A stretch of DNA of 64,000 nucleotides from Thermosynechococcus sp. CL-1 (lineage in GTDB: Bacteria; Cyanobacteriota; Cyanobacteriia; Thermosynechococcales; Thermosynechococcaceae): positions 248,001 through 312,000 of the forward strand of contig NZ_CP040671.1 of assembly GCF_008386235.1 (NCBI RefSeq), given 5' to 3'. The notes beneath the pieces are model-generated. The model made no database searches and was not told where the DNA came from. It saw only the letters and a program-made list of their open reading frames with translations. This document shows positions 51,419 through 58,540 of the stretch, piece after piece. Within the stretch, counting starts at the first letter, position 1. Each line of letters starts with the position of its first letter. The translations under genes and the position numbers were made by a program.

Positions 51419-53638
51419 CCCATTGCCAATTCTCCAATGTTGGCTCCCGCCAAAGATGTTGAGGATTCCCTGCTGCTGCGCCTAGGGGTCTTGGGCATGG
51501 TGATTGTTGGCTTGGTGGCAACCGATGTGGCGGCGGATACTGCCAATAGTCTCTGGGCGGTTCCCCTCTCCATTGCGGGCTTTAGTTGGAGTTGGTGGGC
51601 ACGGCGACAAAAAAATGTGGTGGCAAAGCTGGCGATCGCCATTGGGATGTTGACGGCATTGGCGATTTTTTTGGGGCGATTGGCCACCCTCAACCAAGAT
51701 TCACGGATTCTGCTGACGGAACTCTTGATTCAACTGCAAGTGCTCCATAGCTTTGACTTGCCCCGCCGCAAAGATTTGGGCTACTCGATGGTGATTGCCC
51801 TGATTTTAATTAGTGTGGCGGCCACCCTCAGTCAAACCATGACCTTTGGGCTGTTTCTTGTGATCTTTCTGGCGATCGCCCTACCTGTACTCGTCCTTGA
51901 CTACCGCTCGCGCCTTGGCTTACTCTCCACCACCCTGAAAGCCTTGGCCTTGCCTTGGCGGCAATGGGTCGGCCTCTTTGCCCTGATTCTTGGCTTGGGG
52001 ATGGTGGTCTTTGTGCTGCTGCCGCGCTTCCCTGGCTATCAGATTCGCACCTTGCCTGTCAGTGCTGAAATTCAAGTGGCAGGGGAGTTTGACCAAACCC
52101 GGGTGATCAATCCGGGCTATGTCAGTGGCCGTGGTGGTGGCGGTGTCGGCGAGGAACTGGCCAATCAAACCTTTGACCCGAACTTTTACTATGGCTTTGG
52201 CTCCGAGATTGATCAGACCTTTGGCGGGAGCATGACGCCTAGGGAGTTAATGCGGGTGCGATCGCAAGCCCCCGGCTTTTGGCGCGTCCTTGCCTTTGAC
52301 AAATATACGGGGCGGGGTTGGCGCATTAGTCGCAACGATGAGGCAGAAGTGCTGCGGCGTTCCCCTTGGAGTTTTCGCTATCTGCTGCCACAACAACTCT
52401 CCCAAATGCCGACGCGGGAGGTGATTCAGACCTATACCATTGTCTCTGAGTTTAGTAACCTGATTCCCCATCTCTACGAACCCCGCGAACTCTATTTTCC
52501 CACCCGTGAAATTGCCCGTGACCCCGATGGTGGCCTGCGTGCGCCAGTGCCCTTGCCCGAAGGGCTGACCTATTCTGTGATTTCCCAAGTGCCCGTGCGC
52601 GATCGCTCTCTGTTGCGCAGAGCGCCAAAATTAAATCACACCGTAGGCTATCAGTCCTACCTTGAAGTGCCCCCTGAGCTGAAACCACGCCTGCAAGCAC
52701 TGGCCAAAGACCTCCTTGCCAAGGCCGATCGCTCGATTCCCGAACCCTACGAGCAAGCTCTCTACCTCACCCAAGCCCTGAAGCAATCCTATGCCCTGAA
52801 AACCGACATTCCCGAACTAGGCAAAGATCAAGACTTGGTCGCAGCCTTTCTGTTTGAGTGGCGCGGCGGCTATCCCGATCACTTTTCCACGGCGTTGACA
52901 CTGCTACTGCGCAGTATTGGCATTCCCACGCGCTTGGTCACCGGTTTAGGAACGGGGGAATTTAACCCCTTCACGGGCTTGTATGTGGTTCGCAATACCG
53001 ATGCCTATGCCCTGACGGAAGCCTACTTTCCCAATTTGGGCTGGTTTCTCTTTGATCCAATTCCGGGGCACGATCTCTATCCAGCCACCCTAGAGGTAGA
53101 TCAGACCTTTAGCGTTCTCCAGCAGTTTTGGCAGTGGGTCACGGGATGGTTGCCGACCCCAGTGACGGGATTTTTTGGCATTGTCTTTGCTACCCTCGAA
53201 ACTGCTTTGCAAAAATTCTTTGATCTGTTTAGCCAAGGGCTGGGGGGGATTGTCCAAGGGATTTTGATGCTCTTTGGTGGCGTCATTGTGGTCTGGGGCT
53301 TGTGGTACGCTCTCCAGACGTGGCGATATCGTCAACGCCTGCAAAAACTGCCGCCGATCGCCCGCCTCTATGTACAAATGCTCGATGGTCTCGCCCAGCA
53401 GGGATTACCGAAGCGACCCAATCAAACGCCGTGGGAATACGCGCGATCGCTGCAAACCGCTGGCCGTCTTGATGCCGTCAGTCAGCGAGCCATTGAAACC
53501 CTGACGCAGGCCTATGGGGCTTGGCGCTATGGTGGTGATCAGCCCCCCTTGCCACCCCTGAAACGCGCCCTGAATCAACTGCGACAACAACGCTGGCGAT
53601 CGCTGCAACGCACGGTAGCGGATCTGCGCCGTCGTTAA
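51398..53638 (+). CDS. Multi-pass transglutaminase-like protein (DUF3488 type), catalytic residues degenerate
   Basis: A 746-residue TgpA-like membrane protein. The N-terminal half has about six helices (residues 25-220), followed by a periplasmic domain with a transglutaminase core (about 470-560), another hydrophobic helix (about 605-640) and a C-terminal DUF4129-like cytoplasmic tail (ARLYVQMLDGLAQQGLPKRP). The fold markers are conserved (GIPTRLVTG, YFPNLGWFLFDPIPG), but the nucleophile Cys of the GYCEHFAS motif is Pro493 and the catalytic His is Tyr537; only Asp553 remains. It is therefore unlikely to be an active transglutaminase and may act as a binding or scaffold protein. The stop overlaps the CNNM gene on the other strand. 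Confidence 0.9.
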   Translation: MFQSWLQPIANSPMLAPAKDVEDSLLLRLGVLGMVIVGLVATDVAADTANSLWAVPLSIAGFSWSWWARRQKNVVAKLAIAIGMLTALAIFLGRLATLNQDSRILLTELLIQLQVLHSFDLPRRKDLGYSMVIALILISVAATLSQTMTFGLFLVIFLAIALPVLVLDYRSRLGLLSTTLKALALPWRQWVGLFALILGLGMVVFVLLPRFPGYQIRTLPVSAEIQVAGEFDQTRVINPGYVSGRGGGGVGEELANQTFDPNFYYGFGSEIDQTFGGSMTPRELMRVRSQAPGFWRVLAFDKYTGRGWRISRNDEAEVLRRSPWSFRYLLPQQLSQMPTREVIQTYTIVSEFSNLIPHLYEPRELYFPTREIARDPDGGLRAPVPLPEGLTYSVISQVPVRDRSLLRRAPKLNHTVGYQSYLEVPPELKPRLQALAKDLLAKADRSIPEPYEQALYLTQALKQSYALKTDIPELGKDQDLVAAFLFEWRGGYPDHFSTALTLLLRSIGIPTRLVTGLGTGEFNPFTGLYVVRNTDAYALTEAYFPNLGWFLFDPIPGHDLYPATLEVDQTFSVLQQFWQWVTGWLPTPVTGFFGIVFATLETALQKFFDLFSQGLGGIVQGILMLFGGVIVVWGLWYALQTWRYRQRLQKLPPIARLYVQMLDGLAQQGLPKRPNQTPWEYARSLQTAGRLDAVSQRAIETLTQAYGAWRYGGDQPPLPPLKRALNQLRQQRWRSLQRTVADLRRR

Positions 53639-54975
53639 TCCTTGTCCTTGGGGTTGCTGTCATCGGCGAGGGCATCATCGCTCACTAGTTCGGTCACCAC
53701 CACCTTATCCACGCGGTTGCCATCCATATCCACCACTTCAAAGCGCAGGCCATCGGTTTCAATGTAATCTCCCGACTGGGGAATACGCCCAAATAGCGTA
53801 ATGATTAGCCCGCCAAGGGTGTGGTAGTTGGCCGTGTCCTCCTCAGGTAAACTTTCCCGCCGCAGCAATTCCTTGAGTTCATAGGTGGAGAGCAACCCAT
53901 CCAACAGCCAAGAGCCATCCTCCCGCTGAATAATTTGCGGTTCTTCCCCCTCGTCGTGGCGCAGTGTGCCAATAATCGCCTCCGTGAGATCATTGAGCGT
54001 CACCAGCCCTTCGATGCCCCCGTATTCATCAGTAATCAGGGCAATGTGTTGACTCGATTGGCGAAAGAGTTCAAGGACATCAAGTGCCGGTAGGCCTTCG
54101 GGAACAAAGAGCGCTGGTTGCAAAAGCTGGCGCAGGTCAATCTCTTGCTGGGTGAGACGAGCGGCCAAAAAGTCCTTGGCTGAAATAATTCCCAAGCAGT
54201 GATCAATGGTTTCTTCAGCCACGGGAAACCGCGAATGGGAACTGGCTAGGATTTCCGCCTCCATTTCTTCAAGGGAAGATTCAATATCCAGCCACACAAT
54301 ATCGGTGCGGGGGGTCATGATCGACTGAATCGGGCGATCGCCCAAGTTGAAAATCCGCGCCACCATGTCCTGCTCCGCCACCTCAAAGAGACCCGCCTGT
54401 GCCCCCTGCTCAATCAGGACTTTGATTTCATCCTCTGTAACCGTTTGGTCGGCAATGGTGGCAATGCCCAATACTTGCAGAATGGTATCTGTGGAGACGC
54501 TGAGTAAATGCACAATCGGAGCCGCTAATTTCGTCAGCCATGTCATGGGTTTGGCAATGTTGCAGGCGATCGCCTCGGGGTACGTCATGGCAATGCGCTT
54601 GGGCACCAGTTCGCCAATCACCAAGGAAAGGTATGTAATCCCCGTCACCACAAGGGCAATACTCAAAGGCTGGCTGTATTGACCCAACCATGGCACGGGA
54701 CTGAGGACAGCCTGTAACCGCTGGGCAAGGGTGACACCGCCCACGGCACCACTGAGAATCCCAATCAGGGTAATCCCAATTTGTACAGCCGAGAGAAAAT
54801 TATTCGGGGAGTTGGCGAGTTTTAGGGCTGCCTTCGCCTTGCGTTGACCCCGTTTTGCCAGTTGCTCAAGGCGGACTTTGCGTGCAGAGACCACTGCGAT
54901 TTCAGCACCAGCAAAAATGCCATTGGCGATAATGAGCAGCAGCACAAGTAAAATTTCTAAGGCAGCGGCAGACAT
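53635..54975 (-). CDS. CNNM/CorC-type transporter (DUF21, CBS pair, CorC_HlyC)
   Basis: A 446-residue membrane protein of the family once called hemolysins and now linked to Mg/Co efflux. The DUF21 domain with about four helices (ALEILLVLLLIIANGIFAGA at the start, also IGITLIGILSGAVGGVTLA) is followed by two CBS modules (about 210-340, IMTPRTDIVWLD and SSQHIALITDEYGGIEGLVT) and a C-terminal CorC_HlyC domain (about 360-430). All parts are present. Probably monocistronic. Confidence 0.93.
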   Translation of the reverse strand: MSAAALEILLVLLLIIANGIFAGAEIAVVSARKVRLEQLAKRGQRKAKAALKLANSPNNFLSAVQIGITLIGILSGAVGGVTLAQRLQAVLSPVPWLGQYSQPLSIALVVTGITYLSLVIGELVPKRIAMTYPEAIACNIAKPMTWLTKLAAPIVHLLSVSTDTILQVLGIATIADQTVTEDEIKVLIEQGAQAGLFEVAEQDMVARIFNLGDRPIQSIMTPRTDIVWLDIESSLEEMEAEILASSHSRFPVAEETIDHCLGIISAKDFLAARLTQQEIDLRQLLQPALFVPEGLPALDVLELFRQSSQHIALITDEYGGIEGLVTLNDLTEAIIGTLRHDEGEEPQIIQREDGSWLLDGLLSTYELKELLRRESLPEEDTANYHTLGGLIITLFGRIPQSGDYIETDGLRFEVVDMDGNRVDKVVVTELVSDDALADDSNPKDKD

Positions 54976-55281: not shown

Positions 55282-56334
55282 ATGCACGAGCGACTTCAAC
55301 GCTTCCTTACCCTAGGGGCGATCGCGATTCTGGTGCTGTTAATTGTGGCTTTCCTCTGGAGTGAAGAGGCACTCCAGTCGCCGAGCCGCACTTGGGAGAC
55401 CCTCAGTAATGCAGTGATTACCTTGGTGGGGGAGTATCCCGATCGCCCGCGCACCCTGCTGGGGCAAGTCCTGCAGCTGCTGCTACTGCTCTTTGGCACC
55501 TTTGCCTTTGGTGCCCTGATTGGCAAGTTTTCCGCCTACTTTGTCACCCAAGCTCTTAGCCAAACCCTACCCATGAAACCCTTTAGCAACCACATTATTA
55601 TCTGCAACTGGAATGCCAAGGCGCCCCTTGTGCTCCGCCAATTGATTGCCGCCAACGTCTACCATCCCCGCGACATTGTGCTTTTATGTGCTGAACCGAT
55701 TGCACTGGATCCTGAATTCCAAGGGCGCCCGGATGTCTTTGTAGTACAAGGGGATCCTACCCACCATGGCACCCTAGAGCGCCTCAATGCCCCCCAAGCC
55801 AAAGCCATTATTCTGCTTGCGGATGCCGACATGGAAGCTCCCGATGAAAAAAATGCCCTCATTGCCCTTGCGGTAAAGCACCTAGAGAAAACCCCTGGCC
55901 AAGAGCAGGATATTCATGTGGTGGCCGAATTGGTGAATAGCGATCGCCAGCGCCACCTCAAGGAAGCGGGGGTGGATGAAGTGATTTTGAGTCAGGACTA
56001 TAGTTCTGGGATTCTGGCCCAAAGTGCCCTCTTTCGTCAAATGTCCGAGGTCTATCGCCAACTCCTGACCTATTCTGATCACACCAATGAGTTCTACTTT
56101 ATTGAGCCGGGGTACTATCCCACGACCCTCTGTGGCCTCTCCTTTGCTGCCCTCAGTGCTTGGATGAGTGAGTACAGTAGCCGCCATCCAGAGAACCCGC
56201 TGCTCCTGATCGGGATTCGCCGCCAAAATCAACAGGTGTTGCTCAACCCTCGTCCCACAGACTTTCAGAGCCTTGACCCCAGTGACACCCTGATTGTCAT
56301 GGCCTATCGCCCCATCTATGATTTGCGGGGATAA
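55282..56334 (+). CDS. Ion-channel-like protein with TrkA-N domain and non-canonical pore
   Basis: A 350-residue protein with the plan of a two-helix potassium channel carrying an RCK/TrkA-N regulatory domain. Helix 1 is at about 8-25, the pore segment at about 37-55, helix 2 at about 58-82, then PFSNHIIICNWNAKAPLVLRQL opening the Rossmann fold and a C-terminal TrkA-C-like region. The selectivity filter is not TVGYG but TLVGEYPDR (Thr47 to Arg55), with Glu51 and Asp54. Ion selectivity therefore cannot be assumed to be for K. In the Rossmann fold the usual GxGxxG is replaced by NWNAK, as in CASTOR-like channels. Confidence 0.8.
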   Translation: MHERLQRFLTLGAIAILVLLIVAFLWSEEALQSPSRTWETLSNAVITLVGEYPDRPRTLLGQVLQLLLLLFGTFAFGALIGKFSAYFVTQALSQTLPMKPFSNHIIICNWNAKAPLVLRQLIAANVYHPRDIVLLCAEPIALDPEFQGRPDVFVVQGDPTHHGTLERLNAPQAKAIILLADADMEAPDEKNALIALAVKHLEKTPGQEQDIHVVAELVNSDRQRHLKEAGVDEVILSQDYSSGILAQSALFRQMSEVYRQLLTYSDHTNEFYFIEPGYYPTTLCGLSFAALSAWMSEYSSRHPENPLLLIGIRRQNQQVLLNPRPTDFQSLDPSDTLIVMAYRPIYDLRG

Positions 56335-57494
56335 ATCCGTCCTTTCCAAGCACCACCCCGACCTTGCCAGTGGCGCCGCGCCGAATCCAGTGTCATCAGC
56401 GTATAGAGGAAGGCAATCAGCGGCAGTGTCAGCGCCCAAGCGCCATTGAGGCCATAGAAACGCACCGTTGGCCCGTAGGCGATCGCCATGCTCCCCCAAG
56501 TGAGTCCCGCCATGACGGCTAAGGGCAGCGACTGACTGATCAGACCGATAGCAAGGGCAAGGGGCGCCCACAAATACACCAGTGTCATGCCAATCAAGGT
56601 TCCCACCAGCAAGAGCGGTGAATAGGACAACTGCGTATAGGCGGTGCGAGCCACCATCTGCCAAATACTGCCGAGCGTATTGTAGGCACGCAGACTCACG
56701 GTGGTCGGTGTCAGCCCCAACCAAATGCGGTAGCCGGCTTGTTTGACAGCGGCAGCTAAGGAACAATCATCAATCAGGGCATGGCGAATACAGGCAATGC
56801 CACCAATCTTGTCCAGCGCCACAGGATCAATCAGAATACAGCCCCCCGCTGCAGCCGCCGTTGATCGCTGTGGATCGTTGACCCAAGGGAAGGGATAGAG
56901 CTTAGCAAAGAAAAAGACAAAGGCGGGAATCAGCAATTTTTCCCAAATACTTTGGCAGCGCAGTTTCACCATCAGCGAGACAAGGGCACAATTTTGCTGA
57001 CGGGCGTGGGCGACCAATTGGCGCAAATTTTGGCGATCGTGGGCAATATCGGCATCTGTAAGCAGCAAGTAATCGGGATCAAACGCACGGGCGGCCTCAA
57101 CGCCTTGGGACAGTGCCCAGAGCTTACCTGACCAGCCGGGGGGGAGCGGTGTGCCTTCAATCACCGTTAGGCGATCGCCCTTGCCCAGTGCCAAAGCCGC
57201 TTGGCGAGCAATGTCCCCTGTGCCATCGTCACTTTGATCGTCCACCAAGATCAGATGTAGGGTTCCCTCGTAGTCCTGTTCGAGGAGCGATCGCACACTG
57301 GTGCCAATCACCGCCGCCTCATTGCGAGCTGGAATGACAACCACCACCCTTGGCCAAGCCCTGAGGTCTCCCCCCTGTAGCCGCTGATCCGTGCGCCAAA
57401 ACTGTCCCCAAAACAGCAGCAAAACCAGCCAGATCACAAGGGAAAGGGCCGTTACACTCAACAGGATGAGGGTTAACACAGGGGATATGGTCAT
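56316..57494 (-). CDS. hpnB: Family 2 glycosyltransferase, HpnB-like
   Basis: A membrane glycosyltransferase of 392 residues. One N-terminal helix (VLTLILLSVTALSLVIWLVL) is followed by a GT2 domain with VVVIPARNEAAVIGTSVRSL, VDDQSDDGTGD, LLTDADIAHD and the acceptor motif ALIDDCSLAAAVKQ, and then several C-terminal helices. It matches the hopene-associated glycosyltransferase HpnB type; no hopanoid gene is in the window, so the acceptor is uncertain. A GTG three bases earlier is an alternative start. The ATG overlaps the rsgA stop (TGATG). The 3' end overlaps the channel-like gene. Confidence 0.85.
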   Translation of the reverse strand: MTISPVLTLILLSVTALSLVIWLVLLLFWGQFWRTDQRLQGGDLRAWPRVVVVIPARNEAAVIGTSVRSLLEQDYEGTLHLILVDDQSDDGTGDIARQAALALGKGDRLTVIEGTPLPPGWSGKLWALSQGVEAARAFDPDYLLLTDADIAHDRQNLRQLVAHARQQNCALVSLMVKLRCQSIWEKLLIPAFVFFFAKLYPFPWVNDPQRSTAAAAGGCILIDPVALDKIGGIACIRHALIDDCSLAAAVKQAGYRIWLGLTPTTVSLRAYNTLGSIWQMVARTAYTQLSYSPLLLVGTLIGMTLVYLWAPLALAIGLISQSLPLAVMAGLTWGSMAIAYGPTVRFYGLNGAWALTLPLIAFLYTLMTLDSARRHWQGRGGAWKGRIYPRKS

Positions 57495-58540
57495 CACAGT
57501 TCACTATCGAGGACTTCTTCAGCCATAGGATTGAGGTGCTGATGTTGCTGCCGTCGCGATCGACGGCGATATTTTTTCGGATCCAAGAGGGGTTCAAGGC
57601 GCTGCTGCCCTTGGCGGTCACTCTTGGCCTTCACTGGGGGTACCTTCCCTAAGGATGGCTCTGAACTGGCCATTGTTTCTAGCTCATGCAAATACTCAAT
57701 GTAGAGGGGGTAGCGCTCCCAATCACCGCGTACACAGCAGCCCGGTTCCTGATCGTGGCGACAGTTATCAAAGAGACACCGATCCTTGCTCAGCCGTTGG
57801 CGAATCTCCGGAAAAGCCGCCGCCAATTGCTGGGGGTCTTGGGGCAGTTCGGGTTGATTAAAGCCCGGTGTATCGGCAATCCAGCCCCCCGCTGGCAGGG
57901 GAAAGAGTTCCACATGGCGAGTGGTGTGCCGCCCCCGGTGCCAGTGATCCGAGACCGCACCGACGCGAATATCTTCCCGAGGTGTCAGATGGCGGATCAA
58001 GCTACTTTTGCCTACCCCCGACGGGCCACAGACAACTGTAATCTTATCGGCGAGGTGGGGATGCAGATGTTGCCAGTCGCTTCCTTGGGTGAGACTGAGG
58101 ACATGGCAGTGATAGCCCCATTGATGCAGGCGATCGCGCCACTGCTGTTGCTCTTGCGCAGAAACTAAATCCGCTTTGGTGAAAAGCACCTGAATCTCGA
58201 CATTCAATCCCTCGGCGGTCAAGAGAAAGCGGCTAATTTGATGGACATCAGCAGGAGGGTCAGCCAAGGCAAAAAGGAGCAACACTTGATCGACATTGGC
58301 GATCGCTGGGCGTGACAATTGATTGCGGCGGGGCAAAATCTCAGCGATCGCTCCGCGGTGTCCTTGCCAGTCGGGATGGCTCACCACCACCCAATCCCCC
58401 ACACACACCTGTTGCCCCATCTTCTTGAGGCGGGCGCGGCGTACACACAGTAACTCCTCAATGCCATTGGCGGCTTCCTGCAGGCGGACACGGTAGTAAT
58501 TGGCCTGAACAGCCCGCACCAAGCCCACCAGATCACTCAT
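57494..58540 (-). CDS. rsgA: Ribosome small-subunit-dependent GTPase RsgA
   Basis: A circularly permuted GTPase that checks 30S maturation. 348 residues: an OB-fold at about 10-75 (CVGDWVVVSHPDWQG), then the permuted G domain with G4 TKADLV preceding G1 GPSGVGKSSLIR and G3 DTPGFNQPELP, and a zinc-binding knuckle (CLFDNCRHDQEPGC). A basic tail (DPKKYRRRSRRQQHQH) favours RNA binding. Its ATG overlaps the stop of tusA by four bases. Confidence 0.97.
   Translation of the reverse strand: MSDLVGLVRAVQANYYRVRLQEAANGIEELLCVRRARLKKMGQQVCVGDWVVVSHPDWQGHRGAIAEILPRRNQLSRPAIANVDQVLLLFALADPPADVHQISRFLLTAEGLNVEIQVLFTKADLVSAQEQQQWRDRLHQWGYHCHVLSLTQGSDWQHLHPHLADKITVVCGPSGVGKSSLIRHLTPREDIRVGAVSDHWHRGRHTTRHVELFPLPAGGWIADTPGFNQPELPQDPQQLAAAFPEIRQRLSKDRCLFDNCRHDQEPGCCVRGDWERYPLYIEYLHELETMASSEPSLGKVPPVKAKSDRQGQQRLEPLLDPKKYRRRSRRQQHQHLNPMAEEVLDSEL

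Follow-up and report, generated by a model that had tools for sequence, protein, structure and literature searches.

The window that we analysed is the whole 64,000-nucleotide stretch of Thermosynechococcus sp. CL-1 DNA (NZ_CP040671.1, positions 248,001 to 312,000). On its + strand it contains a gene with an ATG start (55282..56334) that encodes a 350-amino acid protein with a 2TM/P-loop region followed by an RCK domain. Upstream and divergent from it lies a 446-aa frame (53635-54975, –) whose translation reads as a CBS/CorC-type membrane protein, and downstream a convergent frame (56316-57497, –), a glycosyltransferase as judged from its translation, overlaps the channel gene by 19 bases. When a conserved operon was sought across 21 loci, only lineage-specific neighbours recurred besides the channel and its antisense or overlapping frames, and no functional partner of the channel emerged because of this. 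A frame for a PsaC-like ferredoxin, identified from its sequence, lies near the channel in eight of the 21 loci.

We built an AF2 monomer model of the protein from a 31-row alignment (mean pLDDT 86.7). In this model a first transmembrane helix (TM1, residues 2-27, 55285..55362) is followed by a pore helix (residues 34-49, 55381..55428) that is colinear with the pores of KcsA and LmK, a loop at residues 50-58, a second transmembrane helix (TM2, residues 59-93, 55456..55560), and an RCK fold. Pfam and VIA place the N-lobe of the RCK domain at about residues 102-253 (55585..56040) and the C-lobe, which weakly resembles Castor_Poll_mid, at about residues 254-345 (56041..56316). Two Pfam families, Slo-like_RCK (38.7 bits vs 24) and TrkA_N (37.6 bits vs 23.8), score above their cut-offs, and NCBIfam gave only matches far under cut-off. 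The best full-length Foldseek match is MthK (E 2.4e-16). Pfam and AF2 gave no sign of six transmembrane helices with a cyclic-nucleotide-binding domain, nor of a tandem second RCK domain, the 350 residues holding one. Thus, the preliminary description of this DNA was right to call the protein a two-helix RCK-type channel. Within the RCK domain, the sequence D-P-T-H-H (residues 158-162, 55753-55767) is invariant in nine orthologues and is a possible metal site.

The same description had also claimed that the canonical TVGYG is replaced and that acidic residues stand in its place, and this is what we found. The protein reads T47-L-V-G-E-Y-P-D-R55 (55420-55446, +), with Glu51 encoded at 55432-55434 and Asp54 at 55441-55443, and this segment continues into the outer mouth (T47-LVGEYPDRPR-T58, 55420..55455). 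Where a K+ filter has TxGYG or TxGFG, the window protein has LVGEY. A canonical pore motif in another part of the protein is ruled out, as GYG and GFG are absent throughout the 350 residues. For conservation we used 41 distinct orthologues with 50% or more identity to the window protein and an alignment reaching the pore. This set includes sequences of odd length (L109, L093, and L060) and the copies L060/L110, which are interrupted or lie at a contig edge and do not match in their C-terminal part. The signature GEYPD is clade-wide. L48, G50, E51, Y52, P53, and P56 are each found in 41/41 orthologues, position 54 is Asp in 40 and Glu in one (L088), and position 55 is Lys, Arg, or Gln (34, 6, and 1, respectively). 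None of the 41 retains the Tyr or second Gly of GYG, or the Thr that precedes the filter Val.

We registered the loop on the outer-mouth pattern P-x-T-x-x-G-[RKQ], and in this frame it is colinear with VGYGDxxPxT, with 8 residues from the filter Gly to the Thr of TxxG both in the window protein and in TVGYGD proteins. The filter was ungapped in 6/6 pairwise alignments against cyanobacterial TVGYGD 2TM-RCK proteins, any gap falling in the pore helix, and phmmer gave the same register against KcsA and LmK. By contrast, when the whole-family profile is aligned to BK and MthK, single gaps flank EYPD and EYPD pairs with GYGD. We prefer the ungapped register because VG, P56, T58, and G61 stay in place in it. 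It puts Leu48 at the Thr position and Glu51 at the GYG Tyr position, so that Glu51 appears to stand at the filter Tyr as the Glu does in the TIGE of animal CNG channels.

These alignments also bear on the idea that the protein is still a K+ channel, in which the altered loop still offers the backbone carbonyls needed to prefer K+. Such an outcome is improbable. The whole-family profile finds its best matches in the K+ channels BK and MthK, and K+ channels share a colinear pore helix and outer mouth with the protein, but the three replacements named above occur in every orthologue. Moreover, the NaK filter TVGDGN, which is nearer to canonical than GEYPD, is described as already non-selective in the portion of PMC9822992 that we draw on. 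The K+ filter has indeed been lost, in register and throughout the clade, so the protein most likely conducts other cations. The preliminary description had suggested this; the filter change behind that suggestion holds and the selectivity is a prediction from it.

Orthologues scoring above 500 bits are present in 33 of the 388 genomes of the class. A scan of contigs yielded 28 loci, of which 20 with a cyanobacterial label and one with the label Lentisphaerae fall at 53-71% identity. The remainder (30-37%) come from Thiomargarita, Victivallales, Aegiribacteria, Sumerlaeota, Planctomycetota, KSB1, and a deltaproteobacterium. The Lentisphaerae-labelled contig carries a GEYPD orthologue (L052, 56%), to be explained by horizontal transfer or by misbinning of a cyanobacterial contig. 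No relative of the channel was found in viral contigs, and a term search of open-licence PMC papers listed none that names the GEYPD filter. Five of the distant relatives have filters that read as acidic but not fixed (GEYDD in Thiomargarita, GEFNE in Victivallales, SGLDSG in Aegiribacteria, SGFEDV in Sumerlaeota, and TGPGDS in Planctomycetota), and GEYPD is fixed in the near clade only. In a tree of 51 rows the GEYPD proteins form one clade (support 100/99) nested among the distant relatives. Two other acidic pores were seen. A 236-aa frame (L134, genome G410) with TM helices and the start of an RCK domain has the pore sequence LGELGNVETN and a long tree branch. A six-helix RCK paralogue outside the window (L022, G000 C1:1265455-1266345), kept in 11/11 genus genomes, represents a second non-TVGYG, acidic filter class, with the filter S-A-E-P-I-G-A-Y-P here and S-G-E-P-I-G-G-E-P in other cyanobacteria.

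The gating domain resembles that of plant channels. In VIA its closest solved structure is CASTOR (6o6j; Z 20.3, rmsd 2.8 Å, 229 aligned), followed by DMI1 (7vm8; Z 19.7, rmsd 3.0, 229 aligned), GsuK (Z 17.9, rmsd 10.0), and BK (Z 17.3, rmsd 3.2, 228 aligned). Single-chain MthK gave Z 15-16 with rmsd 13-17, values that are not comparable with those of CASTOR and BK because MthK is domain swapped and the CASTOR and BK chains hold both RCK domains. This raises the question of whether the protein is a Ca2+-selective channel that does in bacteria what CASTOR/DMI1 does in plants, for which the Z scores above that of BK would speak. Castor_Poll_mid matches 26/31 family members with E ≤ 0.01 and one of them (L061) clears the cut-off with 27.7 bits, but the window protein itself scores 15.6 bits against a cut-off of 26.7. 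Similarly, in the 51-row tree the GEYPD family and its relatives join the CASTOR-like bacterial proteins, but on long branches and with support of 87/76, which falls short of the 95/80 that we take as firm. An acidic filter residue, D265, is essential in CASTOR according to the part of PMC6697748 consulted; however, in CASTOR this residue comes before the filter Gly (ADSGNHA), whereas the Glu here follows it. With one RCK domain per chain here against two in CASTOR, and with the Z score of MthK handicapped by domain swapping, we consider such a counterpart unlikely, though a better candidate than a retained K+ channel.

Instead of GxGxxG, the RCK domain has C108-N-W-N-A-K-A-P, the CNWN taking the place of the motif. 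The absence noted in the preliminary description is therefore real. As a mark of novelty it was rejected, since MthK, in our alignment, and the strands of CASTOR-like proteins lack GxGxxG as well, and the suggestion of gating by something other than NAD is the weaker half of that description's reading. Translations of the TVGFxE paralogues do contain GxGxxG, a motif tied to nucleotide binding in the text seen of PMC3510474. Lack of the motif fits an ordinary member of the Ca2+- or ion-sensing RCK class. In the family profile alignment, D188 and E216 match two of the three Ca2+ ligands of MthK and the third position is Val218. We take the MthK site to consist of D184, E210, and E212. Given these two matches and the missing GxGxxG, the ligand is most probably an ion, for example Ca2+, rather than a nucleotide.

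Between TM2 and the RCK domain, codon 98 (55573..55575, +) reads ATG in the window and is a start codon in 41/41 orthologues. It is ATG in 19, GTG in 18, and TTG in 4 of these, rows that are related by descent and so do not represent 41 independent events, and it is never another Val or Leu codon. As a comparison, GTG makes up 466/1101 Val codons and TTG 257/1760 Leu codons in the same genes. Among 349 columns this is the sole one with start codons in 41/41, the next-best columns (340 and 254) being conserved Met, and it is the sole all-GTG column among the 44 that have at least eight Val. With these columns left out of the tree, parsimony gave 10 changes at codon 98, all between start codons. 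This conserved start codon is newly found. A Shine-Dalgarno (SD)-like 4-mer lies upstream of it in 29/41 orthologues vs 1308/14083 control positions (9%), although columns 30-33 outscore codon 98 on the SD test alone. The 4-mer is absent from the window copy and its three intact congeners, which counts against an internal start there.

In a wider comparison, from which seven rows of other classes were left out as having no motif match, a start codon with SD precedes the RCK domain in 20/28 GEYPD rows. In 5/5 distant relatives a start codon stands there with a purine-rich SD, and the combination is seen in 2/14 double-RCK CASTOR-like proteins, the background being 3-11%. In five of these 14 the motif search matched the second RCK. 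In MthK, internal initiation at Met107 yields four RCK domains that complete a ring of eight, as described in the part of PMC9440719 available to us. By this analogy, translation from codon 98 would give a soluble RCK subunit spanning residues 98-350. Codon-level conservation suggests, on genome sequences alone, that an MthK-like arrangement of tethered and soluble RCK domains is under selection in the GEYPD clade and its distant relatives. In the KSB1 genome a 448-aa channel frame is directly followed by a separate RCK-only frame of 297 aa (L067:4715-6912), which would be another way of supplying the soluble half.

The gene is intact in only 4/11 genomes of the genus (G000, G001, G002, and G007). 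Channel remnants with stops and frame breaks remain in G004 and G008, and three genomes have internal deletions that all differ (in window positions, about 55380-56058 in G006, 55358-56306 in G005, and 55377-56290 in G009). G003 has a displaced channel fragment, and in G010, where the gene order beside the glycosyltransferase differs, no channel remnant was found. On a tree of the glycosyltransferase, most of whose forks are open, the pattern of channel loss needs 4 changes. The gene is thus dispensable in the 7/11 congeners in which it is broken or absent. These losses, and the three different deletions in particular, would be expected of a decaying gene or a non-conducting sensor in which the pore motif is irrelevant. 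However, the four intact copies have dN/dS of 0.068-0.151 in 6/6 pairwise comparisons, which places them under purifying selection, and the filter is invariant in 41/41 orthologues. Both speak for a functional pore wherever the gene has been retained, and we regard decay or a silent pore as very unlikely. The low dN/dS and filter invariance, together with the occurrence of orthologues across the class, also indicate that the gene is real beyond chance.

The reading that we favour, and think fairly probable, is a tetrameric RCK-gated channel of MthK architecture with a 4+4 RCK ring that is poorly K+-selective and binds divalent cations. In this model, four full-length chains would form the pore. 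Translation would also begin at codon 98, and four of the resulting soluble RCK subunits would join the four tethered domains to complete a gating ring of eight, as happens in MthK. Binding of a ligand, likeliest an ion such as Ca2+, would then move the ring and pull TM2 open. In the pore, (L/V/M)-G-E-Y-P-D would occupy the place of TVGYGD, and with Glu51 for Tyr and Leu48 for Thr the K+ cage would be lost. A ring of four Glu51 side chains, with Asp54 just outside, could bind divalent cations. Such a pore would be expected to discriminate poorly among monovalents and to be permeated or blocked by Ca2+, as CNG channels are. A more far-reaching version, possible but doubtful, is that the clade conducts Ca2+ or Mg2+ and has converged on the CNG filter, combining an MthK body, a dual-product gene, and a CASTOR/DMI1-related ring. 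If true, there would be a Ca2+-entry channel in cyanobacteria with a gating ring related to plant symbiosis channels. Under the favoured reading, the clade supplies candidate cyanobacterial divalent-cation channels, and its invariant acidic filter could serve as a small natural model for how a Glu in the filter converts a K+ pore to divalent binding.

Compared with known systems, the family is a clade-wide acidic-filter variant of the MthK-type RCK channel with a conserved internal start codon. It shares with MthK the domain order, the length class, the lack of GxGxxG, and a start codon after TM2 and ahead of the RCK domain; it differs in having LVGEYPDR in place of TVGYGD and is about 18-21% identical in structural alignments. 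With CASTOR, POLLUX, DMI1, and the bacterial CASTOR-like proteins it shares a non-K+ filter containing an acidic residue, the closest solved RCK fold, and the C-lobe similarity described above. All of these have two RCK domains per chain and filters of the ADSGNHA or MDPGTIGGD type, whereas here there is one RCK domain and GEYPD.

In the ungapped register, animal CNG channels have, as here, a Glu at the filter Tyr position and a Pro two residues on, and the NaK2CNG chimeras also have a 2TM pore. By contrast, S1-S4 and the cyclic-nucleotide domain are missing here and Leu replaces the Thr before the filter Val. When a 53-residue query and a pore profile were run against solved chains, CNG beta subunits were among the best matches, aligned through the filter into TM2, but at non-significant E values (0.075-0.6 in one search and 0.25-0.45 in the other), making this a lead and not evidence of homology. 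The CNGB filter is TIGG, not TIGE. In CNGA channels the Glu side chain of TIGE lies in the lumen and there is no selectivity among group I monovalents, according to the sections consulted of PMC10761061. In the metazoan CNG clade, TIGE is the only clade-level departure from TVGY/FG among the Kv-like and CNBD channels covered by the text consulted of PMC7576140.

In cyanobacteria, SynCaK (Synechocystis sll0993) is described in the accessible part of PMC13099474 as a Ca2+-dependent K+ channel. NirBac and NaKTs share with the present family a K+-channel scaffold in which the filter has been replaced, and both were measured as non-selective (PMC4607889, PMC5052707, as excerpted). They have a Kir domain or a plain 2TM pore without RCK, and their filters are unrelated to GEYPD. 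In these excerpts, non-canonical filters in prokaryotic K+-channel scaffolds are described as few or single cases, whereas GEYPD characterizes a whole clade.
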